Source: Agelas oroides
Taxonomy: Eukaryota > Porifera > Demospongiae > Agelasida > Agelasidae
Assembly: GCA_949130485.1 (NCBI GenBank)
Contig: OX422189.1
Span: 4,214,720-4,278,719, forward strand
Length of the DNA stretch: 64,000 bases
Direction: 5' to 3'
Of this stretch, positions 35,506-64,000 are shown piece after piece; within the stretch, counting starts at the first letter, position 1, and every line of letters starts with the position of its first letter. The position numbers and the translations under genes are program-made. The notes beneath the pieces are model-generated. The model made no database searches. It was given only the letters and a program-made list of their open reading frames with translations, and was not told the DNA's origin.

Positions 35506-35875
35506 TAAAACCTGCGATTATGTCACTTTCGAAGTCGGGCATCTCACCGATCAGCTGGTACACGAATGTTTTCTCCGGTTTTCACAAAGAAGCACTTCAA
35601 GTTACAGTAAAGTGAACGAAAGACCAACCAATCGATTCTCCGATCATAGAGGATTCGAGAAATATATATTTTGTCGGGGTATGTAGCTACCGTGAGAAGC
35701 GCCGAGGTGAAAATGTAAACATGCACGCGATACCATTTCCGCAGTTTAAATTTTGCCAGCGGAAATTACGTATGAATACTGAACTTCCGGAATCACTAGC
35801 ATAAGCATATTTTTACTTTTGCATATATACGACTTGTTAATTTGTTCGTATCCAATTGCGTATAGAACACAAACC

Positions 35876-38460: not shown

Positions 38461-38877
38461 GTGTTTGGACGGGGGACTCATGTGTTCCAAGCAGTCTGTC
38501 GAGTAAAGTTTCCTGGAGGTAGAAATAGCCTGCAGTACTTTTGCGATGAAGAGTATGTCATGTTTAAAGACTTCTCTCTGTGTTCACACGTCATTGCTGC
38601 ATGCCATGACAACGGTGATTTACGTTCTTTCCTCGAGAATTGCACCAAAAGCAGGTTAAACCAAATCTGGCAGCTATACAATGGTTCTGGAAGAAAGGGA
38701 GTTACCAAGCGTAAACGTAGCCGTGTGACTACAGTTCGTCAATGCCTCCAGCAGAATTGTTCTCCAGCCCACTCATCTGCCACCTTAGACAGTCCAAGTC
38801 AACAACCTACAGGCTTTGAGCAAGGAACCTCAAAAACCTTTGAGCAATACCAGTCCAAATCCTACTCCAGTTACTGA
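38461..38877 (+). pseudogene. SWIM-like zinc finger ORF, probably transposon-derived
   Basis: An open frame of about 139 codons contains FKDFSLCSHVIAACHDNGDL. This matches the second half of a SWIM zinc finger (CxCxnCxH), in which CSH supplies the final Cys and His. The first half reads YFCDEEY and has one Cys where the motif needs two, so the finger looks damaged. A basic KRKRSR patch and a Ser/Gln-rich tail follow. SWIM fingers commonly sit at the C-terminus of MULE transposases, and the nearby hairpin MITEs look MULE-derived, but no transposase core is present here. The true 5' end is unknown. Confidence 0.45.
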
Positions 38878-39658: not shown

Positions 39659-39781
39659 TGTTACAGGAAATTTGATCGCTCGGAAATACTATCGCTGCGA
39701 TAATATTTCCAGGAAATTTTATCGCCGAGCGTAACTTTTTCCTAGGAAATATCATCGCAGCCAGGAAATACGATCGCTCAC
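39659..39781 (+). repeat. Ginger1 left TIR with six iterons
   Basis: Six copies of GGAAATNNNATCGC, none with a mismatch outside the N positions, start at 39666, 39682, 39697 (inverted), 39712, 39745 and 39764. They are likely transposase binding sites. The right TIR holds the same six in mirror image. Confidence 0.9.
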
Positions 39782-40036
39782 GGTACAGCCGTCCGGTAGA
39801 GGCGAGAAATAGCGCTTAAAAATGGAGATCATTGCACGTCTCCGCAGTCTATTGACTTTGCAGTGATGGAAGTGAAGGAATATGACGAGATCTACAACGT
39901 GGTGGCAGAGCAGAACTATCCAGATGGTATCACCAAGAACCAGAAAGATGCCTTGCGCAACAAGGCCAAAAAGTTCGCGATTCGAGATGGTCTATTATAT
40001 TACTGTGACAAGAAGCGTGGAGAAAGGCAGGTGGGT

Positions 40037-40068
40037 GCTGTGTGTGTGTGTGTGTGTGTGTGTGCATG
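40037..40068 (+). repeat. (GT)n microsatellite in a Ginger1 intron
   Basis: A run of about a dozen GT units directly follows the exon 1 donor. It is a simple repeat. Confidence 0.9.
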
Positions 40069-40378
40069 TGTGCCTATTATTATTCAGATTCACTCAGCAT
40101 GCATGATTTACAGTGTATTTAGCTTGCAATATGATATAGCTGTTCTGGTAATTCAGTCATAATATAGACTCAGTAGGCAAACCTCAAACTTCAACAGATA
40201 TTTCCTTGTGTCAATGTTATATGTAGGTGATAAAATCTGAGCAGAAACACATTACGTCATTCATCAGTGGCTGTCAGAACTGTAACTCGGTTGTACCAGT
40301 AAGCTCCACCAATCTTGTTATAAAAGCGCTATTCAGCTATGAAATTGTACAGTTCCTTGAGTTTTAGATGTGAAAATC

Positions 40379-40498
40379 ATGGCTACCTACTCTCTGCGAA
40401 GCAAGGAAAGGAAGAACTACCGGGAGATAGCTGATATCCGCCTACCCAGATCCGAGAGACTTCAAGCTACCAACAAACTGTACCCAGTGCAAGTATAA
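40379..40498 (+). pseudogene. Short ORF with YSLR...LYPVQV motif inside Ginger1
   Basis: The 39-residue ORF MATYSLRSKERKNYREIADI... ends LYPVQV and TAA at 40496-40498, between integrase exon 1 and the zinc finger. It resembles the start of chromo/Tudor-knot-like modules in some invertebrate transposon proteins (a basic leader, then L-Y-P-V-x-V), from memory. It may be a captured fragment or an alternative exon. It is not in phase with the integrase downstream. Confidence 0.35.
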
Positions 40499-41938
40499 GT
40501 CCTCCAAGCTTGCCACAATGACCCAGTCAGTGGAGCACACTTTGGAAGGGACAAAGTGGTGGAGAAGATTGAGGAACGATACTACTGGGTGGGTATCATC
40601 AGAGATGTATTGAAGGTGACCAAGACCTGTGACAAATGCCAACGTGCCAACCCCAAATTCCGTAAGACCCCAGCTTGCATCCATCCAATCCCAGTGACTG
40701 ACCAGGTTTGGCATACCGTAGGGATTGATCTGATTGGTCCCCTTCCAAAAACAGAAAGAGGGAATGAATACATAGCCACTTGTGCATGCCTCTTTAGCAA
40801 AACGGCCAGAAGCAGAAGCTCTCAAAGACAAATCTGCAGCTTCCGTGGCAGGGTTTGTTTTCAGGTTGATGTGCCGACATGGTTGCCCTACCATTCGCAT
40901 TTCAGACCAGGGCCGCGAGTTTGTAAATGCATTTGACACTGAGTTCTGCAAGCTTACAGGAGTTGACCACCGCATTAGCTCAGCTTACCATCCCCAAACA
41001 AACGGACAAGATGAAAGGTTCAACCAGATCCTCCAAAGAAGCCTTCGAAAAATGGTCAATGAAGACCAAAATGACTGGGACAAGTACATTGACTCAGTCC
41101 TGTTTGCCTACCGTACATCTAGGCAGGATTCTTCCAAATACACCCCCTTCTGCCTCATGTATGGTACCCTCCCAATTGACATACTAACTGATCAACAGAA
41201 GAGAACACCTACCAATTCCGAAGTACAGATGACTGATGAACAAATCCATGAGAAAGCAAGACAGTTGATTGAGCTTCGTAAGAAAGCATTAGAGAATGTG
41301 AATAATGCCAAAGAAAAGATGAAGAAGCGAACAGATGCCAAACACAATGATTTCACGTCTGACTTCACACTTGGATCACTAGTACTAGTGTTGAATTCAA
41401 GGAAGCTCTCCCGAAAAGGAGGCAAGATGGAACCTCTCTGGCACGGTCCTTATAGAATCCATGAGGATCTAGGGAAGGGTTGCTTCAAGCTGTGTCTTGT
41501 GGATGATTGCAGCAAGATCCTGGCCCAGAAGTACAATGTGCAACGACTGAAGCTTTACCATCTCCAGAACAGGTAAGTGAATGAGTTGAGTAAAATGCAT
41601 CAACATTTATATATATATATGGCTGAAAAACTGTCACCACTCTGATGGGTTTTTTTTTTTTTTTTTTTTTTCATGATCACAATCAACTTCACAGTGGTAT
41701 TTCTGATGAGAAGCAGCCAGAGCATCAGGGGCAGTAAGAGAAGACAGAGTCAAAGTCAGAGCAGCAGGAGAAGCATGGATCAAAGGCAGAGCAACCCGAG
41801 AAGGAGCCAGAGTTAAAGACAGAGCAGGAGGAGGAACCGCCAAAGAAGAAGAAGAGAATGATGGGTCGTTACAAGGTTAGTTATAAATATAATTGAATTT
41901 GAATTTGTCAATTGACTGATTTTCAAAAATCTCTATAG

Positions 41939-42679
41939 TTCACCAGGAAACTCAGCAAGGATGAGCTGGAAGCTATACGAAGAGGAGATAAACTGACAGA
42001 CACCCACATCCAGGCTACACAAGTTCTGATCAGAAGGCAATTCCTTAACATAGATGGGCTGCAGGACCCTGTGTTAGGTGAAGGAAACCACTTCATTCCA
42101 AACGTAAATGAAGGCATTCAAATTCACCATGTTGGAAACCATTGGGTGACATCATCTAGTGTTGGTGGCAGTCTGGCAGTATACGACAGCATGTTCTCTG
42201 GGAAGCTTTCCACTTCTTTGCAGTGTCAGCTAGCCACCATATATAAGCTGATGATTTTGAGAGAAGAAGACGGTGAGGTGGTAGACCCACATATCCAGGT
42301 ACACATTCCGAATCTTCCACAGCAACAGGGTGTTGCAGACTGTGGAGTATATGCTATTGCATACGCTTTCCATGCAGCAAGAGGGGACAGTTTGGAAGAT
42401 ATCGAGTTTGAACAAGACAAAATGCGGCAGCACTTAGCTAGATGTTTAACTAAGCAAAAGCTGACTCCTTTTCCACACTCACAAAGGCGTGCTCATGTTC
42501 CACCATACCCATGGTTTCCATACCAGGAAATAGAAGTGTTCTGCACCTGCGAAATGCCAGAATGCCTCGACAACATGATACAATGTGATGGTTGTGAGGA
42601 ATGGTACAACATGGCTTGTGTTGGACTGAAAACTCCACCTCCAGATACTGATTCATGGCACTGTAGTACAGCATGTAAA
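41939..42679 (+). other. Ulp1-like C48 protease and PHD domains of Ginger1
   Basis: The last exon begins FTRKLSKDELEAIRRGDKL. Candidate catalytic residues of the protease are His in GNHWV (42140-42142), Asp in YDSM, Gln in LPQQQGVADCG and Cys in that same motif (42341-42343), so the site looks intact. Ulp1-type proteases cleave SUMO-like conjugates. The PHD finger follows at 42542-42679 with seven of the eight expected zinc ligands; the His position is Asn (WYNMAC, codon 42608-42610). Confidence 0.8.
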
Positions 42680-42781
42680 GTGTAGGACTCATATATAAAT
42701 TTCACTAACATAGTATAACAACAAAAAAAGTGATGTACCCCTGTTCGTATTTTATGTAATGACAATGCTGCTTTTGTTTTT

Positions 42782-42905
42782 GTGAGCGATCGTATTTCCT
42801 GGATGCGATGATATTTCCTAGGAAAAAGTTACGCTCGGCGATAAAATTTCCTAGGAAATATTATCGCAGCGATAGTATTTCCGAGCGATCAAATTTCCTG
42901 TAACA
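42782..42905 (-). repeat. Ginger1 right TIR
   Basis: This is the inverted copy of the left TIR, with few substitutions and a small length difference. It contains the six GGAAATNNNATCGC iterons in mirror order and ends GTAACA. Confidence 0.9.
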
Positions 42906-42980: not shown

Positions 42981-45900
42981 TTTCCCGGCACATAAACACG
43001 CCTACACGAGCATCACAACACAACTACAGTGATGTAAACGGCTGTTTCGATATTTCTGGGCTATAAACATGCCTAAACGCGCTTCACTAGACTTCCAGGG
43101 TGGCTTAAACGGCTTTGTCAAACCTTATTCTCCACATATCGATGAAAACTGCTTTCTCGATCTTTCCAGAAAATTAAACAGGGACCTCGATACAGATGAA
43201 AACAGCTTTCTTGTTCTTTCTCGGTACATAAACAGGCCTATACGAGCTTCATAGAATTTTAACTGTGACTTCTCGTTCTTCCCCGGCACATAAAAGGCCA
43301 ATACGTGTTTCACAGAAAACTGCTTTCTCGATCGTTCCTTGCACATAAACAAGCCTATATTCCAGGCACATAAACAGGTGTACACAAGGTTCACAGGGAC
43401 TCCACAGAGGTTGAAACTGCTTTCTCAATCTTTCCGTGACATAAACAAGCCTATACGAGCTCTACAGGATCACCACTCATAAACACAGGGACTCCACAGA
43501 GGTGAAAACCAGCCTCATTCCCAGGCCTTCCCCGGCTCCAGTTTTTGATCGCTTGCAGTATGCAAAATCGGAGGGAGAAGGCCTGGTGAATCTTACCACG
43601 TGATCCGCGGCACACATGACGTCACAGGTTCTAGACACGAAGATATATTCATCTCCAGCTATACCTCTAGAACATACCCGAGTCTGAAGGGACATAAACA
43701 GGCCTATTCGAGCTTCACTGGACTTCCACAGTGACAAAAATTACTTTGTCGATCTTTTCCGGGACATAAACAGGCCAATATGAGCTTCTGCAGAGAGGTG
43801 AAAACTGATTTATCGATCTTTCCGGGCACATACGTAGGCTTATGCGAGCTTCACAAGGCCACTACAGAGGTGAAAACTGCTTTCTCGATCTTACCAGGGA
43901 CATAAACAGGACTCCACAGTGATGTAAACTACTTTTTCCATCGTTCCCTGCACATACAGGACTTCCACAGTGACAATGAAACTACTTTTTTGATCTTTCC
44001 AGGCACATACACAGGCTTCACAAGACCACCACAGAGGTTAAAACTGCTTCCTCGATCTATCCATGCGCATAAACAGGCCTGTACAAGCTTCACAGGGCCT
44101 CCACTGAGATGAAAACTGCTTTCTAGATCGTTCTCGGCACACAAACAGTCTTATACAAGCTACATAGGACTTCAACAGGAGTGAAAACTTATTTCTCGTT
44201 CATTCCCGGCACATAAACAGGCCTATACGTGCTTCACAGAACAGCCACAGAGGTTAAATCAGTAATCTCGATTTTTTCCTGCACGTAAACAAGCGTATAC
44301 GTGCTTCATAGGATTTCCATAGAGGTGAAAACTGCTTTCTCGATCTTTCCAGGCACATACACAGGCTTATGTGAGCTTCACAAGACCACCACAGAGGTGA
44401 AAACTGTTTTTTCGATCTTTCCCGGTACATAAACAGGTCTGTGCGAGCTCTACAGGACCACAACACAGGTGAAAACTGCTTCCTCCATCTTTCCAGGCAC
44501 ATAAACAGCCTATACGAGCTCTACTGGACAAACATACAGGTGAAAAATGGTTCCTCGATCTTTCCAGGCACAAAAACACAAGCATCACAGGGACTCCGCA
44601 GAGGTTAAAACTGCTTTCTCGATCGTTCCCAGCACTTAACCAGGCCTATACAAGCTTCACGGGACTACCACAGTCGCGAAAACTACTTTGTCGATCTTTC
44701 CCGGCATATAAACAGGCCTATACGAGCTTCACAGGACCACCACATAGGTTAAAACTACTTTCTCGATCATTCCCTGCACATAAACAGGCCTATATGCATT
44801 TCGTAGGACTTCCACAGTGACAAAAACTGCTTTCTCGATCTTTCCCGGGACATAAACCGGCCTATACGAGCTTCACAGGACTTTCACAGAGGTTAAAACT
44901 GCTTTCTCGATCACTTACACAGGCTTATGCGAGCTTCACAAGAGCACCGCAGAGGTGGTAACTTCTTCCGCGATCTTTCCAGGCACATAAACCGGCCTTT
45001 ACAAGCTTCACAGGGCCCCCACATAGGTGATAACTGCTTTCTCGATCTTTCTCGGCACGTAAACAGGCCTATGCGAGCGTCATTGGACTTCAACAGGGGT
45101 GTAAACTGATTTTTAGTTCTTTCCTGGTACGTAAACAAGCCTATACGTGCTTCACAGAACTGCCACAGAGGTTAAAAGTGCTTTCTCGATCATTCCCGGC
45201 ACATACACAGGCTTATTCGAGCTTCACAAGACCAACAATGATGTGAAAACTGTTTTCTCGATCTTTCCCGGTACATAAACAGGCCTATGCGAGCTCTACA
45301 GGACAACCACACAGGTGAAAACTACTTCCTCCATCTTTCCCGGCACATAAACAGGCCTATACGAGCTTCACAGGACTTCCACAGTGACGAAAACCACATT
45401 GTCGATCTTTCTCGGCACATAAACCAGCCTATACGAGCTTCACAAGACCTCCACAGAGGTTAAAACTGTTTTCTCGATCGTTCCCTGCACATAAACAGGC
45501 CTATACGAACTTCACAGGACTTTCACAGTAACGAAAACTACCTTGTCGATCTTTCTCGACACATAAACTGACCTATACGAACTTCACAGAACTTCCACAG
45601 TGACAAAACTACTTTGTGGATCTTTCCCGGCACATAAACATGCCTATAAGAGCTTCCAAGGACCTGCACAGGGGTGAAATCTTCTTTCTCGATCTCTCCC
45701 GGCACATACACAGGCTTATGCAAGCCTCACAAGACCGCCACAGCGGTGAAAACTGCTTTCTCGATCTTTCCAGGCACATAAACAGGCCTATGCAAGCTTC
45801 ACAGTGCTTCTACATGGGTGAAAACTGCTTTCTCGATCGTTCTCGGCACGTAAACAGGCCTATGTGAGCTTCATAGGACTTCAACAGGAATGAAAACTGA

Positions 45901-48900
45901 TTTCTAGTTCTTTCCCGGCACATAAACAGGCCTTTTCATGCTTCTCAGAACCGCCACCAAGGTTAAAACTGCTTTGGCGATCGTTCCCTGCACATAAACA
46001 GGCCTATACGCAATTCATAGGACTTCCACAGGGACATAAACTACTTGTCGATCTTTCCCGGCAAATAAAAAGGCCAATACGAGTTTCACAGGACCTGCAC
46101 AGAGGTGAAAACTGCTTTCTCGAACTTTCCCGGTACATAAACAGGCTTGTACGTGCTTTACAGCATCGCCACAAAGGTTAAAACTGCTTTCACGATCGAT
46201 TCCAGGCACATAAACAGCCCATACGAGCTTTTCAGGACCTCCATAGAGGCGAAAACTGCTTTGGCAATCGTTCTCTGCACATAAACAGGCCTATACGCAC
46301 TTCATAGGACTTCCACAGTGACAAAAACTACTTTGTCGATCTTTCCAGGGACATAAACAGGCCTATACAAGGTCTACTGTAACACATCACAGGTGAAAAC
46401 TGCTTCCTCGATCTTTCCAGGCACATAAACGGGGCTTTACGAGCATCACAGGACTTCCACTGTGACGAAAACTACATTGTCGATCTTTCCCGGGACATAA
46501 ACAGGCCTATTTGAGGTCTACTGGAACACAACACAGGTGAAAACTGATTCATCGATCTTTCCAGGCATATAAACAGCCCATTACAAGCTTCACAGGGCCT
46601 CCACATAGGTGACAACTTCTTTCTCGATCGCTCTTGGCACGCAATCAGGACTATGCGAGCGTCAAAGGACATCAACATGGGTGTAAACTGATTTCTCGCT
46701 CATTCCCGGCACATAAACAGGCCTATGCGTGCTTCACAGAACCGCCACAAAGGTTAAAACTGCAATCACGATCGTTCCCGGCACATAAACAGGCCCATAC
46801 GAGCTTTACAGGACCTCACCAGAGGTGAAAACTGCTTTGGCGATCGTTCCCTGCACATATACAGGCCTATACACATTCATAGGACATCCACAGTGACAAA
46901 AACTGCTTTGTCGATCTTTCCCGGCACATAAACAGGCCTATACGAGTTTCACAGGACCTGCACAGAGGTGAAAACTGCTTTCTCGATGTTTCCCGGCACA
47001 TACACAGGCTTATGCGAGGATCACAAGACCACCACAGATGTGAAAACTGCTCTCTCGATCTTTCCCGGGACATAAACAGGTCTATACGAGGTATACTGGA
47101 ACACAACAAAGGTGAAAACTCCTTCCTCGATCTTTCCAGGCGCATAAACGGGCCAATAAAAGCTTCACAGGGCCTCCACAGAGGTTAAAATTGCTTTCTC
47201 GATCGTTCCGTGCACATAAACAGGCCTATACGCACTTCATAGGACATCAACAGTGACAAAAACTACTTTGTCGATCTTTCCCGGCACATAAACAGGACTA
47301 TACGAGCTTCACATGACTTGCTCAAAGTTGAAAACTGCTTTCTCGATCTTTCCCGGCACATACACAGGCTTATGCAAGCTTCACAAGACCACCACAGAGG
47401 TGAAAACTGCTTTTTCGATCTTGACCGGTATATAAACAGGCCTATGAGAGCTCTACAGGACCACAACACAGGTGAAAACTGCTTCCTCCATCTTTCCAGG
47501 CACATAAACAAGCCTATACGAGCTCTACTTGACCAACCCACAGGTGAAAACTGTTTCTTCGATCTTTCCAGGCACATAAACAGGCCTATACAACCTTCAC
47601 AGGTCCTCAACAGCAGTTAAAACTGGTTTCACGATCGTTCCCGGCACATAAACAGGCCAATATGAGCTTCTCAGGACTTCCACAGTGACGAAAACTACTT
47701 CGTCGATCTTTCCCGGCGCATAAACATGCCTATATAAGCTTCACATGACTTGCACAACGGTGAAAACTGCTTTCTCAATCTTTCCCGGCACATACACAGG
47801 CTTATTCGAGCTTCACAAGACCACTACAGTGGTGAAAACTGCTTTTTCGATCTTGACTGGTAAATAAACAGGCTTATGAGAGCTCTACAGGACCACAACA
47901 CAGGTGAAAACTGCTTCCTCCATCTTTCCAGGCACATAAACAAGCCTATACAACCTTCACAGGGCCTCAACAGCGGTTAAAACTGCTTTCTCGATTGTTT
48001 CCGGCACATAAACAGGCCTATATGAGCTTCTCAGGACTTCCACAGTGACGAAAACTACTTTGTCGATCTTTTCCGGCACATAAACAGGCCGATACGAACT
48101 TCACAGGACCACACAGGGATGAAAACTGCTTTCTCGATCTTTCCAAGCTTCACAGGGCCTCCACAGCGGTGAAAGCTGCTTTCTCGATCGTTCTCGGCAC
48201 ATAAACAGGCTATACGAACTTCATAGGAGTTCAACAGTGGTGAAAACTGATTTCTCGTTCTTTCCCGGAATATACAGAGGCCTATACGTGCTTCAGAGGA
48301 CTTCCAACCGTGACGAAAACTACTTTACCGATCTTTCCCGGGACATAAACAGGCCTATACGAGCTCTCCAGTACCACCACACAGGTGAAAACTGCTTCCT
48401 CGATCTTTCCAGGCACATAAACAGGCCTATAGAAGCTTCACACGGCCTCCACAGAGGTGAAAACTGCATTCTCGTTCTTTCCTGGCACATGCACAGGCTA
48501 ATGCGAGATTCACAAGACCACCAAAGATGTGAAAACTGCTTTCTCGATCTTTCCCGGGACACAAACAGGCCTATACGAGCTCTACTGGACCACCACACCG
48601 GTGAAAAATCCTTCCTCGATCTTTCCACGCACATAAACAGGCCTATACGAACTTCACAGGACTTCCACAGTAACAAAACTACTTTGTCGATCTTTCCTGG
48701 CACATATACAGGCTTATGCGAGCTTCACAAGACCACCACAGAGGTGAAAACTGCTTTCTCGATGTTTCCAGGCATATAAACAGGCCTATACAAGCTTCAC
48801 AGTTCCTCCACATAGGTGAAAACAGCTTTTTCGGCACGTAAACAGTCGTATGTGAGCTTCTTAGGACTTCAACAGGGGTGAAAAGTGAGTTTTCGTTCTT

Positions 48901-48950
48901 TCCCGGCTCATAAACAGGCCTATACGAGCTTCACAGAACCGCCACAAAGT
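42981..48950 (-). repeat. 72-bp satellite array, inverted block 1
   Basis: This is the same monomer as the left half of the window, now on the minus strand (GGCACATAAACAGGCCTATA). The same subtypes occur, and the pair with CTCTACAGGACCACCACACAGG and CTTCACAAGACCACCACAGAGG keeps its usual neighbour order. It is interrupted at 43511-43683 by a partial MITE. No gene is seen. Confidence 0.95.
43511..43683 (+). mobile_element. Hairpin MITE family, copy 4 (half element)
   Basis: It begins AGCCTCATTCCCAGGCC and shares CCAGTTTTTGATCGCTTGCA with the complete copy at 37576. Only the left arm and part of the centre remain before satellite resumes (GGGACATAAACAGGCC). Confidence 0.65.
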
Positions 48951-51627: not shown

Positions 51628-54600
51628 ATTCCCTGGACATAAACAGGCCTATACGAGCTTCACAGAACCGCCACAAAGATTAAAACTACTTTCTCGATCG
51701 ATCCCGGCACATAAACAGGCCCATACGAGCTTCACAGGACCTCCACAGTGGTGAAAACTGCATTCTCGATCGTTCGCTGCACATAAAGAGGCCTATATGC
51801 ACTTCATAGGACTTCCACAGTGACAAAGATTACTTTGTCGATCTTTCCTGGCACATAAACAGGCCTATACGACCTTTACAGGACATGCACAGAGGTGAAA
51901 ACTGCTTTCTCGATCGTTTTCGGCACATAAACAGGACTATACGAGCTTCATAGGACTTTCAACAAGGGTGAAAACTGATTTCTCGTTCTTTCCCGGCACA
52001 TAAACTGGCATATACGTGCTTCATAGAACCGCCACAGCGGTTAAAACGGCTTTCAAGATCGTTCCGGGCACATAAGCTGGCCTATACGAGCTTCACAGGA
52101 CCGCCACAGAGGTGAAAACTACTTTGTCGATCTTTCCCGGCACATAAACAGGCCTATACGAGCTTCACCAGACCTCCACAGTGACAGAATATACTTCGTT
52201 GATCTTTTCCGGCACATAAACAAGGCTATACGATCTTCACAGGTCCGCACAGGGGTGCAAACTGCTTTCTCGATCTTTCCAGGCACATACACAGGCCTAT
52301 ACGAGCTTGACAGGACCGGCAAAGTGGTGAAAACTGCTTTCACGATCTTTCTCTACACAAATACAGGCTTATGCGAGCTTCACAAGACCGCCACAGGGTT
52401 GTAAACTGCTTTCTCGATCTTTCTCTGGACATAAACAGGCCTCTACGAGCTTCAGAGGACTTCCACAATCACGAAAACTACCTTTGTCGATCTTTCCCGG
52501 CACATAAATAGATCTTACGACCTTCACAAGGCCTCCACAGGGGTGAAAGCTGCTTTCTCGATCGTTCTCGGCACATAAACAGGCCTATACGAGCTTCATA
52601 GGAGGGTGAAAACAGATTTCGCGTTCTTTCCCGGCACATAAACATTCATATACATGCTTCACAGAATCGCCACAGCGGTTAAAACAGTTTTCAAGCTCCT
52701 TCCCGGCACATAAACAGGCCCATACGAGCTTCAGAGGACCACACAGGTGAGAAAACTGCCTTGTCGATCTTTCCAGGAACATACACAGGCCTATACGAGC
52801 TTCACAGGTCCTCCACAGAGGTGAAAACTGCTTTCACGATTGTTCCCCGCACATAAACATGCCAAACGTGCTTCACAGAACTGCCACAGAGGTTAAAACT
52901 GCTTTCTCCATCGCTACCGGCACAAATACAGGATAATACGAGCTTCACAGGACCTCCACAGAGGTGAAAACTGCTTTCTCGATCTTTCCAGGCACGTAAA
53001 CAGGCCTGAACGAGCATCACAGGACCTGCACAGAGGTGAAAACTGCTTTTTCGATCTTTCCAGGCACATACACAGGCTTATGCGAGCTTCACATGACCAC
53101 CACCGAGGTAGAAACTGCTTTCTCGATCTTTCCATGGACATAAACAGGCCTATACCAGCTTCGCTGGACCTCAACAGTGACGAAAACAGCTTTCTCAATC
53201 TTTCCCTGAAGTTAAACAGGCATATACGAGCTTCACAAGACTTCCACAGTGACAGAAACTACTTTCTCGATCTTTCCCGGTTCACAAGCAGGCCTATACG
53301 AGCTTCACAGGACCTTCACAGAGCTGAAAACTGCTTTCTCGATCTTTCCCTGTGCAGAAACCGGCGTATACGTGGTTCACAGAACCGCCACAGGGGTGAA
53401 AACTGCTTTCTCGATCTTTCCCGGGAAATAAAGAAGCCTATACGAGCTTCACAGGACTTCAACAGTGACGATAACTGCTTTGTCCATCTTTCCAAGCACT
53501 TAAACAGGCCTATACGAGCTTCACAAGACTTCCACAGTGACAGAAACTAGTTTATCGATCTTTCCCGGCACATAAACAGGCCTATACGAACTTCACAGGA
53601 CCACTCAGGGGTGTAAACTGCTTTCTCGATCTTTCCAGGCACATACACAGGCCCATACAAGCTTCACAGGGCCTCCACCGAGGCGAAAGCTGCTTTCGCT
53701 ATAGTTCCCGGCACATAAACAGGCCTATACGAGCTTCACAGGACCTGCACAGTGGTGAAAACTGCTTTCTCGATCTTTCCGGGGAAAAAAGGAAGCCTTA
53801 TGCGAGTTTCACATGAACACCACAGAGGTGAAAACTGCGTCCTCGATCTTTCCAGGCACATAAAAAGGCCTATACAAGCTTCATAGGACTTCACCAGTGA
53901 CGAAAACTACTTTGTCGATCTTTCCCGGCACTTTAACAGGCCTACACGAACTTCACAGAACCGCCACAGAGGTTAAAATTGCTTTCTCGACCGTTCCCTT
54001 CACTTAAACCGAAGAATACGAGCATCACATGACTTCCACAGTGACAAAACCTACATTGTTGATCTTTCCCGGCACTTAAATTGGCCTAACGAGCTTCAAG
54101 GGCCTCCACAGCGGTGAAAATTACATTCTCCATCGTTCCCTGCACATAAATAGGGCTATACGAACTTCACAAGACTTCCACAGTGACTGAAACTACTTTG
54201 TCGATCTTTTCCAGCACATAAATAGGCCTATACGACCTTCATAGGATTTCCCCAGTGACGATAACTTCTTTGTAGATCTTTCCCGGCACTTAAACTGGCC
54301 TATACGAACATCACAGGACGTCCACAGAGGAGTAAACTGTTTTATCGATCGTTCCCGGCACATAAACAGGACTATACTTGGTTCAGAGGACCTCCAGAGA
54401 GGTGTAAACTGCTTTCTCGATTTTGCCCGGCATATAAACAGGCCTATACGTGCTTCACAGAACCGCCACAGAGTTTAAAATTGCATTCTCGTTCGTTCCC
54501 TTCACTTGAACAGGACAATAGGAGCATCGCATGACTTTCACAGTGACAAACGCTACCTTGTCTATCTTTCCCGGCACTTTAATGAATCCCGGCCTATATG

Positions 54601-57333
54601 AGCTTCACAGGGCCTCTACAGAGGTGAAAATTACATTCTCCATCGTTCCCTGCACATAAACAGGCCTATACGAACTTCACAAGACTTCCACAGTGACTTA
54701 AACTACTTTGTCGATCTTTTCCGGCATATAAACATGCCTAAACCAGCTTCATAGGACTTCCCCAGTAACGAAAACTACTTTATCGATCTTTCCCGGCACA
54801 TAAACTGGCCTATGCGAGCTTCACAGGAACACACAGGGGTGAAAACTGCTTTATCGATCTTTCCAGGCACGTTCACAGGTTTATGCGAGTTTCACAAGAA
54901 CACCCACATACGTGCTTCACAGACCCCCCAATGCGGTGAAAACTGCATTCTCGACCGTTCCCGGGACATAAACAGGGGTATGCGAGCTTCACAGGACTTC
55001 CACAGTTACGGAAACTACATTGCCGATCTTTTCCGGCACTTAAACAGGCCTATGCGAGCTTCACAGGACCTCCACAGAGGTGAAAACTGCTTTCCCGATC
55101 GTTCCGGGCACATAAACAGGCCTATACGAGCATTGCAGGACCTGCACAGGGGAGAAAAGTGCTTTCTCGATGTTTACCGTCACATACACAGGCTTATGCG
55201 GGCTTTACAAGACCACCACAGAGGTAAAAATTGGTTTCTCGATCTTTCCCGAGACATAAACAGGCCTATACGAGCTTCACTGGATTTCCGCAGTGACGAA
55301 AACTATTTTGTTGATCTTTCCCGGCACATAAAGAGGCCTATACGAGCTTCACAGGACTTCCTCAGTGACGTAAACTACTTTGTCTATCTTTCCCGGCACT
55401 TAAAAAGGTCTATACCAGCTACACAAGACCTCCACAAAATTTAAAATTGCTTTCTCGATTTATCCCGACACATACACGGGCTTATGCGAGCTCACAGGAG
55501 AGCACAGGGGAGAAATCTGCTTCCTCGATCTTCCAAGGCACATAAAAATGCCTATACGAGCATCACAGGACCACCACAGAGGTAAAAACTCCTTTCTCGA
55601 TCTTTCTCGGGACATGAACAGGCCTATACGAGCTTCACAGGACTTCCTCAGTGACAAAAACTACTTTGTCGATCTTTCCCGGCACTTAAACAGGCCTATA
55701 CCAGCTACACAAGATCTCCTCAGTGGTCAAAACTGCTTTCTCAATCTTTCAAGGCAAATACACGGGCTTATGCGAGCTCACAGGACAGCACACGGGAGAA
55801 ATCTGCTTTCTCGATCTTCCCAGGCACTTAAATTGGCGCGTACGAGCATCACAGGACCACCACAGATGTAGAAACTGCTTTCTCGATCTTTCCCGGGACA
55901 TAAACAGGCCTATACGAGTTTCACTGGACTTCCACAGTGACTAAAACTATTATGGCGATCTTTCTCGGCACATAAACACGCCTATACGAGCTTCGTAGGA
56001 CTTCCTCACTGACGGAAACTACTTTGTCGATCTTTCGCAGCACGTAAACAGGCCTACACCACCTGCACAAGACCTCCACAGAGGTCAAAACTGCTTTCTC
56101 AATCTTTCCCGGCACATACACGGGCTTATGCGAGCTCATAGGACAGCACAGGGGGACATCTGCTTCCTCGATCTTCCCAGGCACATAAAAAGGCCTATAC
56201 CAGCATCACAGGACCACCACAGAGGTAAAAACTGCTTTCTCGATCTTTCCCGGGACATAAACAGGCCTATACGAGCTTCACTGGAATTCCACAGTGACGA
56301 AAACTATTTTGTCGATCTTTCCCGGCACATAAACAGGCCTATACGAGCTTCACGGGACTTCCTCAGAGACGAAAACTACTTTGTCGATCTTTCCCGGCAC
56401 TTAAACAGGCCTATACCAGCTGCACTAGACCTCCACAGAGGTCAAAACTGCTTTCTCGATCTTTACCGGCACATACACGGGCTTATGCGAGGTCACAGGA
56501 CAGCGCAGGGGAGAAATCTGTTTTCTCGATCTTTCCAGGCTCTGAAGCAGGTCTATATAAAGTTCACAAGATCTCCTCAGAGGAGAAAGCTGCTTTCACG
56601 ATCGTTCTCGGCATATAAAGAGGCTTACATGTGCTTCATAGGACTTCAACAAGGGTGAAAACTGATTTTTCGTTCTTTCCCGGCACATAAACAGGCCTAT
56701 ACGTGTTTCACATGACTTCCACAGTGACGCAAACTACTTTGTCGATCTTCACCGGCATATCAACACGCCTATACGAGCTTCACAGGACCTCCACAGTGGT
56801 GAAAACTGCTTTCTCCCTCGTTCTCTGCACATAAACAGGCCTATACGAACTTCACAAGACCTCCACTGTGACAGAAATTATTTTGTCGACCATTCCAGGC
56901 ACATAAACAGGCCTATACGAGCTTCACAGGACCACACAAGGGTGAAAGCTGCTTTCTTGATCTTTCCAGGCACATACAAAGGCCTATACAAGCTTCACAG
57001 GGCCTCCACAGAGGTGAAAGGTGCTTTCTCGATCGTTCTCGGCACATAAACCGGCCTATACGAGCTTCAGAGAACTTCAACAGGGGTGAAAACTGATTTC
57101 TCGTTCTTTCTCGGCACTTAAACAGACCTATACGAGCTTCACAGGACTTCCACAGTGACAAAAACTACTTTCTTGATCTTTCCCGGCACATAAACAGGCT
57201 TATGCGAGGTTCACATGAATTCCCCAGTGGCGAAAACTACTTTGTCGATCTTTCCCGGTACATAATCGGGCCTATAAGTGCTTCACAGAACCGCCACCGA
57301 GGTTAAAACTGTTTTCTCGATCGTTCCCGGCAC
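51628..57333 (-). repeat. 72-bp satellite array, inverted block 2
   Basis: Minus-oriented satellite, including a higher-order repeat near 55200-56500 in which the order of four to six monomers (GGGCTTATGCGAGCTCACAGG and neighbours) recurs three times. No gene is seen. It ends at a sharp orientation switch, CGTTCCCGGCAC|GAGAAAGC. Confidence 0.95.
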
Positions 57334-58526
57334 GAGAAAGCAGTTTTCACCTCTGTGGAGGTCCGGTTGAGCTCGTATAGGCCTGTATAAGTGCCGGGAA
57401 AGATCGCCAAAGTAGTTTCCGTCACTGGGCAAGTCTGTGAAGCTCGTATAGGCCTGTTTTTGTGCCCGGAAAGATCAACAAAGGAGGTTTTTGTCACTGT
57501 GGAAGTCCTGTGAAGCTCGTATAGTCCTGTTTAAGTGCCTGGAAAGATCGAGGAAGCAGTTTTCACCTGTGTGGCGGTACTGTAGAGTTCGTATAGGCCT
57601 TTATATGTCCGGGGAAAGATCGAGAAAACAGTTTTTACCTCTGTGGTGGTCTTGTGAAGCTCGCATAAGCCTGTGTATGTGCCGAGAAATGTCGAGAAAG
57701 CAGTTTTCACCTCTGTGGAGGTCCTGTGAAGCTCGTATACGCCTCCTTAAGTGCCGGGAAAGATCGAAAAAAATGTTTTTGTCACCGGGGAAGTTCTGTG
57801 AAGCTCGTATAGGCCTGTTTATGTGTCGGGAAAGATAAACAAAGTAGTTTTAGTCACCATTGAAGTCCTGTGAAGCTCGTATAGGCCTGTTTATGTCCCG
57901 TGAAAGATCGAGAAAGCACTTTATACCTCTGGTGGTCTTGTAAGCTCGCATAAGCCTGTGTATGTGCCATGAAAGATAGAGAAAGCAGTTTTCCCCTCTG
58001 TGGAGGTCCTGTGAAGCTTGTATAGACCTGATTAACTGCCGGGAAATATCGACAAAATAGTTTTCGTCACTGGGGAAAACCTGTGAAGCTCGTACAGACC
58101 TGTTTAAATGCCTGGAAAGATCGAGTAAGAAGTTTTCACCTGTGTGGCGGCACTCTAGAGTTCGTATAGGCCTGTGTACGTCCCGGAAAAGATCGAGAAA
58201 GCAGTTTTCACCTCTGTGGTGGTCTTGTAAAGCTCGTATAGGCCTGTTTAAGTGCCGGGAAAGATCGACAAAGCAGTTTTCGTCACAGGGGAAGTCCTGT
58301 GAAGCTCGTATAGGCCTGTTTATGTCCCGTGAAAGATCGAGAAAGCAGTTCTTACCACTGGTGGTCTTGTGAATCTCGTATAAGCCAGTGTTTGTACCGG
58401 GAAAGATCGAGAAAGCATTTTTCACCTCTGGTGGTCTTGTGAATCTCGAATAAGCCTGTTTATTTCCCGGGAGAGATCGAGAAAGCAGTTTTTACATCTG
58501 TGCAAGTCCTGTGATGCTAGTATAGG
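57334..58526 (+). repeat. 72-bp satellite, plus-oriented segment 1
   Basis: 1193 bp of plus-oriented monomers between two inversion junctions. It starts GAGAAAGCAGTTTTCACC and ends GATGCTAGTATAGG. Both ends match those of 60111-61741. Confidence 0.9.
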
Positions 58527-60110
58527 CGGCACATACACATGCTTATGGGAGCGTCACCAGACAACCACAGAGGTGATAACTGTTTACTCGATCTTACCCG
58601 GCACATAAACAGGCCTATACGAGCTTCACAGAACTGCCACAGAGGTGCAAACTGCTTTCTCGATATTTCCAGACACATAAACGGACCTTTACAAGCTTCA
58701 CTGGGCCTCCACATATGTGAAAACTGCTTTCTCGATATTTCCCGCCATATAAACAGGCCTATACCTCCTTCACAGATCCGACACAGAGGTGAAAACTGTT
58801 TTCTCGATCTTTCCCGGGACATAAACAGGCCTATACGAGCTCTACAGTAACACCACACAGGTGAAAACTGCTTCCTCAATCTTTCAAGGCACATAAACAG
58901 GCCTACACGAGCTTCACAGGACCTCCACAGAGGTGAAAACTGCTTTCTCCGTCGTTCCCTGCACATAAACAGGCCTATACGAACTTCAGAAGACCTAAAC
59001 AGTGACAGAAATTACTTTGTCGATCTTTCCAGGCACATAAACACGCCTATTCTAGCTGCACAGGACCAAAATGGGTGAAAACTGCTTTCTCGATCTTTCC
59101 AGGCACATACACAGACTTATACAAGCTTCACAGGGCCTCCACGGAGGTGAAAGCTGCTTTCTCGATCGTTCTCGGCACATAAACCGCCCCATACGAGCTT
59201 CAGAGGACTTCAACAGTGGTGAAAACTGATTTCTCATTCTTTACCGGCACATATACAGACCTATACGAGCTTCACAGGACTTCCTCAGTGACGAAAACTA
59301 CTTTGTCGATCTTTTCCTGCACTTAAACAGGCCTATACGAGCTTCACAGGACCTCCTCAGGGATGAAAACTGCTTTCTCCAACGTTCCCTGCGCATAAAC
59401 AGGCCTAAACGAACTTCACAACAGTTCCAAAGTGACAGAACTTCCTTGTCGATCTTTCCCGGCACATAAACATGACTATACGAGCAGCACAGGAACACAC
59501 AGGGGAGAAAACTGCCTTTTAGATCTTTCCATGCACATACACAGGCTTATGGGAGCTTCACAAGACCACCACAGAGGTGAAAACTGCTTTATCGATCTTT
59601 CCCTGAACAGAAACAGGCGTAAACGAGCTCCACTGGGCCACCACACAGGTGAAAACTGCTTCCTCGATCTTTCCAAGCACAGAAGCAGGCCTATACAAGT
59701 TCATAGGGCTTCCTCAGTGGAGAAAACTGCTTTCTCGATCTTTCCCGGCACATACACAGGCTTATGCTAACTTCACAAGACAACCAGAGAGGTGAAAACT
59801 ATTTCCACGATCTTTCCCGGTACATAAACAGGCCTATACGAGCTCTACAGGACCACCACCCAGGTGAAAACTGCTTCCTCGAATTTTCCAGGCACATAAA
59901 CAGGACTATACGAGCTCTATTGAACCTCCACACAGGTGAAAACTGCTTCCTCGTTCTTTCAAGGCACATAAACAGGCCTATACAAGCTTCACAGCACCGC
60001 CACATCGGTTAAAACTACTTTGTCGATCTTTCCCAGCACATAATCAGGCGTATAAGTGCTTCACAGAACCGCTACAGAGGTTAAAACTGTTTTCTCGATC
60101 GTTCCCTGTA
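58527..60110 (-). repeat. 72-bp satellite, minus segment
   Basis: Minus-oriented monomers. The segment begins CGGCACATACACATGCTTAT and ends TTTTCTCGATCGTTCCCTGT at the next switch. Confidence 0.9.
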
Positions 60111-61741
60111 CGAGAAAGCAGTTTTCACCTCTGTGGAGCTCCTGTTGAGCTCGTATAGGCCTGTTTACGTGCCATGAAAGATCGACAAAGTAGTTTTCGT
60201 CACTGGGGAAGTCCTGTGAAGCTCGTATAGGCCTGTTTATGTGCCTGGAAAGATCGAGGAATCAGTTTTCACCTGTGTGGCGGTACTGTAGAGTTCGTAT
60301 AGGCCTGTTTATGTCCCGGGAAAGGTCGATAAAACGGTTTTCACCTCTGTGGTGGTCTTGTGAAGCTCGCATAAGTCTGTGTATATACCTGGAAAGATCG
60401 AGAAAGCAGCTTTCACCTCTGTGGAGGTCCTGTGAAGCTTGTATAGGCCTTTTAAAGTGCCGGGAAAGATCGACAAAGTAGTTTTCTTTACTGGGGAAGT
60501 TCTGTGAAGCAAGTATAGGCCTGTTTAAGTGCCGGGGAAGATCAACAAAGTGGTTTTCGTCACTGTGGAAGTCCTGTGAAGCTCGTATAGGCCTGTTTAA
60601 GGGCCTGGAAAGATCGAGGAAGCATTTTTCACCTGTGTTGCGGTAGTTTATAGTTCGTATAGGCCTGTTTATGTCCCGCGAAAGATCGATAAAACAGTTT
60701 TCACCTCTCTGGTGGTCTTGTGAAGCTCGTATAGGCCTGTTTAAGTGCCGGAAAAGATCGATAAATTAGTTTTCGTCACTGGGGAAGTCCTGTGAAGCTC
60801 GTATAGGCCTGTTTATATGCCGGGAATGATCAACAAAGTAGTTTACGTCACTGTGGAATTCCTGTACAGTTACTATAGGCCTGTTTATGTCCAGGGAAAG
60901 ATCGAGAAAACAGTTTTCACCTCTGTGGTGGTCTTGTGAAGCTCACATAAGCCGGTGTATGTGCCGAGAAATATCGAGAAAGCAGTTTGCACCTCTGTGG
61001 AGGTCCTGTGAAGCTCGTATAGGCCTGTTCAAGTTCCGGGAAGGATCGACAAAGTAGTTTTCGTAACTGGGGAAGTACTGTGAAGCTCGTATAGGCCTGA
61101 TTATGTGCCGGGAAAGATCAACAAAGCAGTTTTTGTCACAGTGGATGTCCTGTGAAGCTCGTATAGGCCTGTTTAAGCACCTGGAAAGATCGAGGAAGCA
61201 GTTTTCACTTGTGTGGCGGTAGTGTAGAGTTCTTATAGGCCTGTTCATGCCCAGGGAAGGATAGAGAAAACAGTTTTCACCACTTTGGTGGTCTTGTGAA
61301 GCTCGTATAAGCCAGTTTAAGAGCCGCGAAAGATCGACAAAGTAGTTTTCGTCAGTGGGGAAGTCCTGTGAAGCTCGTATAGGCCTGTTTATGTGCCGGG
61401 AAAGATCAACAAAGTAGTTTTCGTTACTGTGGAAGTCCTGTGAAGCTCGTATAAGCCTGTTTATGTCCCGGGAAAGATCTAGAAAGCAGTTTTTACCACT
61501 GCTGGTCATGTGAAGCTTGCATAAGCCTGTGTATGTGCCGGGAAAGATCGAGAAAGCAGTTTTCACCTCTGTGGAAGTCCTGTGAAGCTTGTATAGGCCT
61601 GTTTAAGTGCCAGGAAAGATCAACAAAGTAGTTTACTTAACTGCGGAAGTCCTGTGAAGGTCGTACAGGCCTGTTTATGTCCCGGGAGAGATCGAGGGAG
61701 CAGTTTTTACCTCTGTGCAGGTCCTGTGATGCTTGTATTGG
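60111..61741 (+). repeat. 72-bp satellite, plus-oriented segment 2
   Basis: 1631 bp with the same start and end junctions as 57334-58526 but 438 bp longer, about six monomers. It appears to be a copy of that segment with an internal expansion or contraction. Confidence 0.9.
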
Positions 61742-62631
61742 CGGCACACACACAGGCTTATGCGAGCTTCACAAGACCACCACATAGGTGATAACTGTTT
61801 TCTCGATCTTTCCCGGCACATAAACAGGCCTATACGAGCTTCACAGAACAGCCACAAAGGTGAAAACTGCTTTCTGGATCTTTCCACGCACTGAAGCAGG
61901 ACTATATAAGCTTTACAAGGCCTCCACAGAGGTGAAAGCTGCTTTCTCGATGGTGTTCGACACATAAAATGGCATATACGAGCTTCATAGGACTGCAACA
62001 GGGGTGAAAACTGATTTCTCGTTCTTTCCCGGCACTTAAACAGGCCTATACATGCTTCACAGGACTACTGTAGTGACTAAAACTACTTTGTCGATCTTTC
62101 ACGGCAATTAAACAGGCCTATACGAGCTTCACAGGACCTCCACAGAGGTGAAAACTGCTTTCTCGATCATTCCCGGCACTTACACAGGCTTAAGCGAGCT
62201 TCACAAGACCACCACAGAGGTGAAAACTGTTTTCTCGATCTTTCCCTGGACATAAACAGGCCTATACGAGCTCTACAGTACCACCACACAAGTGAAAACT
62301 GAGTCCTCAATCTTTCCAGGCACATAAACAGGCCAATAACGAGCATCACAGGACCTCAACAGAGGTGAAAACTGCTTTCTCAATCGTTCCCGGCACATAA
62401 ACTGGCCTATACGACCTTCACAAGACTTCCACAGTGTCAAAACCTAGTTTGTCGATTTTCCAGGCACATTAACAGGCCTAGGCGAGCTTCACAGGACCAC
62501 ACAGGGATGAAAACTGCTTCCACGATCTTTCCAGGCATTGAAACCGGCCTATACAAGCTCACGGGGCCTCCACCGGGTTGAAAGTTGCCTTCCCAATCGT
62601 TCTCGTCACATAAAGAGGTCTGTACGTGCTT
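61742..62631 (-). repeat. 72-bp satellite, minus segment
   Basis: It begins CGGCACACACACAGGCTTAT, like 58527, and ends GTACGTGCTTCAC at the next switch. Confidence 0.9.
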
Positions 62632-62805
62632 CACTGTGGAAGTCCTGTGAAGGAAGTCTTGTGAAGCTCGTATAGGCCTGTTTAAGTGTCGGGAAAGATG
62701 GACAAAGTAGTTTGCGTCACTGTGGAAGTCCTGTGAAGCTCATATAGGCCTGTTTATGTCCCGGGAAAGATCTGAAAAGCAGTTTTCACCACTGTGGCGG
62801 TTCTG
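62632..62805 (+). repeat. 72-bp satellite, short plus segment
   Basis: About 174 bp of plus-oriented monomers (CTGTGGAAGTCCTGTGAAG) between minus blocks. The left junction uses the short palindromic overlap TTCAC/GTGAA. Confidence 0.85.
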
Positions 62806-64000
62806 TGACGCAAACTACTTTGTCCATCTTTCCCGACACTTAAACAGGCCTATACGAGCTTCACAAGACTTCCACAGTGACAGAAACTACTTTGTCGATC
62901 TTTCCCGGCACATAAACAGGCCTATACGAGCTTCACAGGACCTGCACAGAGGTGAAAACCGCTTTCTCGATCATTCCCGGCACATACACAGGCTTATGCG
63001 AAATTCACAAGACCACCACAGATTTGTAATTTGATTTCTCGATCTTTCTCGGGACATAAACAGGCCTGTACGAGCTTAACAGGACTTCCACAATGACAAA
63101 AATTACTTTGTCGATCTTTCTAGGCAGATAAACAGGCCTATACGAGCTTCAAAGGACCACACAGGGGTGAAAACTGCTTTCACGATCTTTCCATGCACAT
63201 ACACAGGCCTACATACAAGCTTTACAAGGCCTCCACAGAGGTGAAAGCGTATGAATTCAACAGGGGTGAAAACTGATTTATCGTTCTTTCCCGGCACATA
63301 AACAGGCCTATACGAGCTTCACAGAACCGCCACAGAGGTTAAAACTGTTATCTCGATCATTCCCAGCACATAAACAGGCCTACTATACGAGCTTCACAGG
63401 ACCTCCACAGAGGTGAAAACTGCTTCCTCGATATTTCCAGGCACAGAAACAGGCCTACACAAGCTCACGGGGTCTCCACCGATGTGAAAGCTGATTTCTC
63501 AATCGTTCTCGGCACATAAACAGGTCTATACGTGCTCCACAGAACCGCTACAGAGGTGAAAACTGCTTTCTCGATCTTTCCCGGGACATAAACAGGCCTC
63601 TACGAGCTTCACAGGACTTCCACAGTAACGAAAACTACTTTGTCCATCTTTCCCGGCACTTAAACCGGCTTATACGAGCTTCACAAGACTTCCACAGTGA
63701 CAGAAACTACTTTGTTGATCTTTTCCGGCACATAAACAGGCCAATACGAGGTTCATAGGACTTCCACAATGACGAAAACAACTTTGTCGATCTTACTTAA
63801 ACAGGCCTACACGAGCTTCACAGGACCTGCACAGAGGTGAAAACCGCTTTCTCGATCATTCCCGCCACATCCACAGGCTTATGGGAGCTTTACAAGTCCA
63901 CCACAGAGGTAAAAACTGCTTTTTCGATCTTTCTCGGGACATAAACAGGCGTATACGAGCTTCACAGGAATTCCACAGTGACGAAAACTACTTTGACATT
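62806..64000 (-). repeat. 72-bp satellite, minus segment to window end
   Basis: Minus-oriented monomers continue past the window. The order at 62820-63000 recurs at about 63630-63880 with two extra monomers, another higher-order repeat. Confidence 0.95.

Follow-up and report, generated by a model that had tools for sequence, protein, structure and literature searches.

Phased arrays of family-specific words suggest putative transposase-binding sites in the ends of Ginger1 transposons from the sponge Agelas oroides

Introduction

What might a short word be doing when it recurs, in changing orientation, throughout both terminal inverted repeats (TIRs) of a Ginger1 transposon? The question is raised by an element in a 64,000-nucleotide stretch of the genome of the sponge Agelas oroides (the whole stretch is referred to here as the window), for which the first-pass annotation reported six copies of the word GGAAATNNNATCGC in each TIR and proposed that they serve as binding sites for the integrase zinc finger or another element protein. 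The main text of the 2010 description of Ginger1 calls the mechanism of excision unknown (PMC2836005). Our analysis of the window, and of related elements in the same genome, suggests that the arrays are best read as phased, family-specific putative transposase-binding sites.

Results

The window element (39659..42905, plus strand; 3247 bp) runs from TGTTACA to TGTAACA, lies at the CCGG of a 72-bp satellite and fits Ginger1 as that group is defined in the text of PMC2836005, with which it shares TGTNR ends, CCGG-type 4-bp target duplications, TIR length, an H2C2 zinc finger, an integrase core, and Ulp1 and PHD domains. The TGTNR end is seen as TGTTA at 39659 and again at the mirror end at 42905, and both the TIRs, of 123 bp on the left (39659..39781, plus strand) and 124 bp on the right (42782..42905, minus strand), and the total length fall within the Ginger1 ranges of 40-270 bp and 2.6-7 kb. 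Because its left flank reads CCGG and its right flank GGGA, the window copy is without a full 4-bp duplication. The satellite unit, TGTGCCGGGAAAGATCGAG, contains CCGG, and comparison with the left flank, which ends TGTGCCGG, and the right flank, which begins GGGAAAGATCGAG, indicates that the copy appears to be inserted into the satellite CCGG, with only two of the four expected bases retained at the right junction. Across the family to which the element belongs (family A), ten of 15 two-ended genomic copies carry a 4-bp duplication (eight CCGG, one CCGT and one GCGG; two of the ten have the same flanks), so that the CCGG/CCGT duplication of Ginger1 is found at the level of the family. The flanks of one further family-A copy (G000 C10:135573-136466) repeat the five bases CCCAG rather than a 4-bp CCGG-type duplication. 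The satellite itself, in diverged form (72-77% matches), occupies much of the window in long arrays (1-29998, 44015-48946, 51629-63994 and other stretches); its unit offers the CCGG that is the Ginger1 target, and the element occupies one such site.

Between the TIRs lie three coding regions, all on the plus strand. The first coding stretch (39863..40030) has no Pfam match and shows, by eye, a YP...YY pattern resembling the YPYY motif. The transposase region (40556..41576), with its H2C2 zinc finger, integrase core and GPY-type C-terminal part, is divided between two frames (40556-40936 and 40782-41576). Pfam recovers Integrase_H2C2 in the window copy (1.7e-8), with rve below the cut-off there, and both domains above the cut-off in an open copy, L040 (2.3e-17 and 4.7e-10, respectively), so that the zinc finger and integrase core of Ginger1 are both present; a copy other than that of the window has an open integrase frame of 370 aa. 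The GPY/F motif was read by eye as GPYRI, the corresponding SH3_Tf2-1 match scoring 24.8 bits, below its cut-off of 30. The third region (42071..42685) encodes a Ulp1-type protease (Peptidase_C48, 2.2e-6) and a PHD finger (4.1e-5, right at the Pfam cut-off), in keeping with the Ulp1 or OTU domain, sometimes joined by a PHD finger, of Ginger1 C-terminal regions. The closest solved proteins by sequence are the integrases of Ty3 (7q5b, E 1.4e-27) and PFV (3l2q, E 1.4e-19). Adjoining the element, a 138-aa reading frame (38461-38877) contains a stretch that by eye is SWIM zinc finger-like and has no Pfam match.

Inspection of the left TIR confirmed every position and orientation given for the six exact copies of GGAAATNNNATCGC: unit 1, the tip unit (39666..39679, plus), unit 2 (39682..39695, plus), the inverted unit 3 (39697..39710, minus), unit 4, head-to-head with unit 3 (39712..39725, plus), unit 6 (39745..39758, plus) and unit 7 (39764..39777, plus). 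The mirror set is equally exact in the right TIR, with the tip unit at 42885..42898 (minus), followed by units 2 (42869..42882, minus), 3 (42854..42867, plus, inverted), 4 (42838..42851, minus), 6 (42805..42818, minus) and 7 (42786..42799, minus). The count of six units per TIR, by contrast, has to be raised, since a de novo search on the right TIR, and on the left TIR singly, returned seven. The additional unit 5, which the first-pass annotation missed, occupies the apparent gap as a degenerate inverted copy, GGAAAAAGTTACGC, that retains eight of the 11 constant positions (39729..39742, minus, head-to-head with unit 6 on the left; 42821..42834, plus, on the right); three held-out families, described below, also carry an inverted unit in this slot. 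It had further been claimed that the constant positions never change while the three central bases differ each time. This holds for the six exact words, whose spacers (TTG, ACT, ATT, TTT, ATC and ACG) are all different, and gives way on the genomic scale, where TIR position 42, a constant position, varies in 11 of 38 TIR copies.

Exact matches to GGAAATNNNATCGC number 13 in the 64-kb window, against a mean expectation of 0.01, and none of 100 shuffles reaches 13. The left and right TIRs are near-identical copies, and we therefore rejected their treatment as 12 independent units. Also set aside was the thirteenth match (35727-35740, GGAAATGGTATCGC), which belongs to a different dispersed repeat, because the match and its flanks read alike in two other loci compared (L007 and L008, nearly the same for some 75 bp on each side).

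Throughout the 259-Mb genome the window-family word occurs 402 times, versus 16 for the reversed pattern. Both TIRs are kept in family-A copies as short as 894-1196 bp. We rejected sameness among family-A copies as a sign of selection: 31 of the 38 TIR copies show 97% identity or more to the reference, and changes are shared among the copies by descent. Family-A sameness thus reflects recent descent, and the test must therefore come from other families.

We searched the same genome at the protein level and obtained many integrase relatives, Gypsy-like ones included among the matches listed. These relatives and their flanks supplied ends that belong to 16 further families; the termini are TGT and mostly flanked by CCGG or CCGT (ends K and V are without a linked transposase gene here). 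Pairwise integrase identity is 39-73% among the fifteen families with integrase pieces in hand. In all 17 families, a de novo search (6 or 12 shuffles each) found an iterated word of about 16 bp that is the family's own and scores above every shuffle, the weakest cases being P (19.0 vs 9.6) and S (21.1 vs 14.3). Summarised from their listed sites, the words read GGAAATTTGGCACCC in family B, GGATATNNNGTACCC in C, GTGAATNNNGTACCC in G, GCGGATTCGATCCG in F, GAAATATTTGGACCCC in I and GTGAATAATGTCCCCC in M. A unit spans about 14-18 bp and, in the window family, C and G, divides clearly into a 5' box, a variable spacer of three bases and a 3' box. C and G have the spacer where the window family has it, F has it there in part, and B does not (for B the comparison took in eight of 11 units, and for F 11 of 12). 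Family F also has the Ulp1/PHD exon most similar to that of A (51%, other long matches being 31-37%), and the GATC-type 3' box of A is found in F as well. The word at the tip recurs within its own TIR at p <= 0.004 against shuffles in 19 of 22 TIRs, and at p < 0.05 against real genomic TGTYA sites in 17 of 22; the two tests gave failing or marginal results for E, N and S, and B_L and P were weak in the genomic one.

Among 70 loci (L042-L111), on the other hand, the exact window-family word is confined to L049, a copy of family A, and to a neighbouring end of that family in L053. Conservation of the motif in related Ginger1 TIRs, which the first-pass annotation had named as the check on its proposal, is thus not found for the letters, which are confined to family-A ends; what related TIRs carry instead are equivalent arrays of other letters, and the binding-site idea accordingly survives in a more general form.

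Two further observations concern the distribution of these elements. Three family-I copies on one chromosome (L051, L052 and L053; G000 C5:890285, C5:1011200 and C5:1017955) match one another at 99.9-100% identity across 3.2 kb; about 7 kb separates two of them, and one adjoins a window-family end, a picture that points to either recent movement or duplication. Elsewhere, only a few bases separate Ginger1-type ends that are nested or stand back to back at CCGG (L081, minus strand, near 1491 and 1363; L066 near 962-967; L071 near 1446-1468), as if the target duplication of one element served as the target of the next.

If the letters differ between families, their placement for the most part does not. 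Measured from the tip, units start near 7, 24, 40, 56, 72 and 88, with orientations + + - + - + in most families, and the tip unit begins 6-9 bp from the end, again in most. Averaged over the 17 families, the match of each array to its own tip is highest at offsets of 22 (+), 38 (-) and 54 (+), and none of 200 foreign-tip permutations reaches any of these peaks. When slots were picked with foreign tips only, the own tip still matched best (p = 5e-5 in slots 2 and 4; p = 0.002 in slot 3, the 5' half of which alone gives p = 0.09). A fixed-register column profile of the units was set aside, being blurred by shifts of 1-2 bp.

Because the slot windows had been set after the first families were seen, we fetched seven more upstream stretches as a held-out test. 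Four of the seven yielded no array; ends were found in the other three, each with seven units at about 7, 24, 39 (inverted), 55, 71 (inverted), 88 and 107, an order that is also that of the window family (6, 22, 39 inverted, 53, 72 inverted, 86 and 105). All three held-out ends fill six of six slots; among 1140 random TGTYA sites, 823 fill no slot, 228 one, 68 two, 19 three, two four, and none five or six. High motif scores also arise from real tandem-repeat DNA, with 22 of the 1140 random sites at 30 or above.

Scored singly, 17 of 25 TIRs fill at least four slots and 21 at least three. V reaches four or more only with units 2-5 turned relative to the tip, so that 16 rather than 17 follow the common order; the inner units of M run opposite to that order relative to the tip, and B_L (singly), M, P and S fit poorly, filling only 0-2 slots. 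By the flank and terminus rule no array was found in eight of 18 upstream stretches (L076, L078, L079, L084, L093, L094, L096 and L097), and no end was found for the family of L056, L058 and L061. Several CCGG-TGT candidates that read away from the gene, were nested or had no array were excluded from the 25. Four slots are filled in one of these, end Q (L081, a short element), two in L055 -490, one in the V-type end L069, and one, in flipped orientation only, in L058 497; L056 778 and L071 -1468 fill none, and L050 2147, L056 3357, L071 -1446, L078 -2354 and L055 945 show no motif. As for second copies, L050 308 (family C) fills five slots and L047 1017 (family B left) none. A repeated word phased from the cleaved tip is thus kept across relatives, with B_L, M, P, S and V as exceptions, and comparison of these sequences indicates that for most families it is the lattice of spacing and orientation that is conserved as a grammar, while the letters are not.

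An end from a second source shows a similar layout. Contig WLWP01000018.1 (isolate MH-Pat-SR; L098), binned as a bacterial MAG, holds integrase pieces of at most 56% identity over 94 residues together with Ulp1/PHD-like pieces. Its CCGG-flanked TGTCACAGG end has units at 7, 24, 42 (inverted), 58 and 78, filling four of six slots, and is the only one of the contig's 279 TGT sites with at least three; a second end was not found in the contig. We take the contig to be sponge DNA in a Mycale hentscheli metagenome, on the basis of the isolate name and its listing in the literature with PMC7157528. The contig, filed under a Pseudomonadales MAG, has a Ginger1 transposon split by introns; it is probably sponge DNA wrongly assigned to a bacterial bin. 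Distant matches in bacterial bins amount to 13 loci, five of which were scanned; of these, L099, L101, L102 and L103 have no end that fills four slots, and five sites that fill three. Searched with the window family's protein, viral contigs gave no relative; searched with a five-family alignment, they gave one distant match, which has no array.

Discussion

The likely role of each Ginger1 TIR, in our view, is to offer the element's own integrase-type transposase a series of recognition sites set in phase. Insofar as it called the repeats binding sites for an element protein, the first-pass proposal gains from the presence of an iterated word of their own in 17 sampled families, from a lattice common to most of them and from the superior match of each array to its own tip; its exact motif is not kept in relatives. 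The first unit, about 7 bp in from the cleaved TGT end, occupies the place at which an integrase has to grip the DNA terminus, and further units follow every 16 bp or so, about one and a half helical turns, mostly in alternating orientation from unit 3 onward. One transposase protomer may dock on each unit; the inverted neighbours 3/4 and 5/6, with their 5' boxes facing, could hold symmetric dimers; and the inner units might load the enzyme and bring both ends into synapsis, which would deliver the tip unit to the catalytic site. The word may be read either by the H2C2 zinc finger together with its upstream extension or by the SH3-like part at the C-terminus.

Some 85 bp separate the left array from the first coding stretch (39863) downstream of it, a promoter-like place, and GGAAA-type boxes presumably resemble known animal factor sites, both of which would suit a reading in which a host transcription factor or repressor occupies the units and the TIR is the element's promoter, with an array that serves expression or silencing rather than synapsis. 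We regard this as improbable, given that the right end, which lies behind the gene, retains the array just as the left end does, that in most families the tip unit keeps a fixed distance of 6-9 bp from the end, and that a single host factor would not explain words that differ between families of one genome. Less probable again is an origin by slippage and gene conversion of the tip sequence with no binding role. Such a process would account for words that are homogeneous within families, and the near-identity of the window element's TIRs shows that copying between ends does happen; it explains neither the alternating orientation nor the use of the same slots by families with unrelated words, and families B, F, G and I have left and right ends that have drifted apart (4 to 18 of 20 matches per slot) and yet, taken jointly, keep the units of each family. 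Units 3/4 and 5/6 are, in many families, palindromic, and inverted neighbours might on that account act as extruded hairpins or folded RNA rather than as protein words on duplex DNA, a notion to which we give very little credence, since the direct units 1, 2 and 7 pair with no neighbour and have the same word nonetheless.

Under the preferred reading of transposase recognition sites, a word that varies between families within a mostly constant spacing is expected, because the word and the DNA-binding surface would co-evolve while the geometry of assembly stays fixed. Word and enzyme would have to change together, so that the enzyme of each family would be expected to work chiefly on the ends of that family. 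Integrase identity is a weak guide to word similarity (rho 0.11, p 0.23 over three slots; rho 0.24, p 0.018 at the tip), so that co-evolution of word and enzyme is suggested only. We put forward tentatively, as a broader proposal that could well prove wrong, that Ginger1 ends encode a conserved grammar in which an orientation-coded lattice of about 16 bp aligns a Gypsy/retrovirus-type integrase, about seven protomers per end, in an intasome unlike retroviral ones, the word acting as a fast-evolving family password that prevents cross-mobilisation among coexisting families of one genome.

The remark in the first-pass annotation that such a pattern was not known from Ginger1 agrees with the sources we could search, which gave no report of repeats inside Ginger1 TIRs (PMC2836005, PMC12863088 and PMC10045372 included; subscription papers, Repbase Reports, figures and supplements lay outside the search, so that an earlier mention is possible). 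In the text of PMC2836005, figures and supplements aside, repeats inside TIRs go unmentioned, and 'binding' and 'palindrom' have no occurrences.

The grammar of spacing and orientation tells which DNA the enzyme should recognise and predicts the positions of dimers. About twenty natural combinations of word and enzyme in one genome form a resource for asking how an integrase-type enzyme reads DNA, and the lattice could help to recognise short non-autonomous Ginger1 copies by their ends alone.

Retroviral and Ty3 integrases use one short terminal site per end and are not known to act on an array over 100 bp such as Ginger1 ends carry. The two groups are alike in their homologous enzyme core (7q5b, 3l2q) and in ends of the TG...CA type. 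TnsB and MuA, from Tn7-like elements and Mu, are DDE enzymes that bind several repeats per end (for ShCAST TnsB, five in RE and three expected in LE), and Ginger1 ends resemble theirs, as far as the text of PMC9527255 describes them, in having several sites at each end; these are bacterial or phage elements with different DNA-binding domains, and the likeness covers the number of sites and not their order. In the hAT transposon Hermes, subterminal repeats are bound by an N-terminal BED zinc-finger domain, their exact phasing is reported to be crucial and, as in the window element, short repeated sites lie near the ends, some of them as a quasi-palindrome; Hermes belongs to another superfamily, and its short AAGT-motif repeats are arranged differently at the two ends, with no lattice of about 16 bp in the part of the account consulted (PMC10368747). 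Transposon ends with multiple sites are thus already known, and what is new, as far as our search extended, is a lattice common to families whose words differ.
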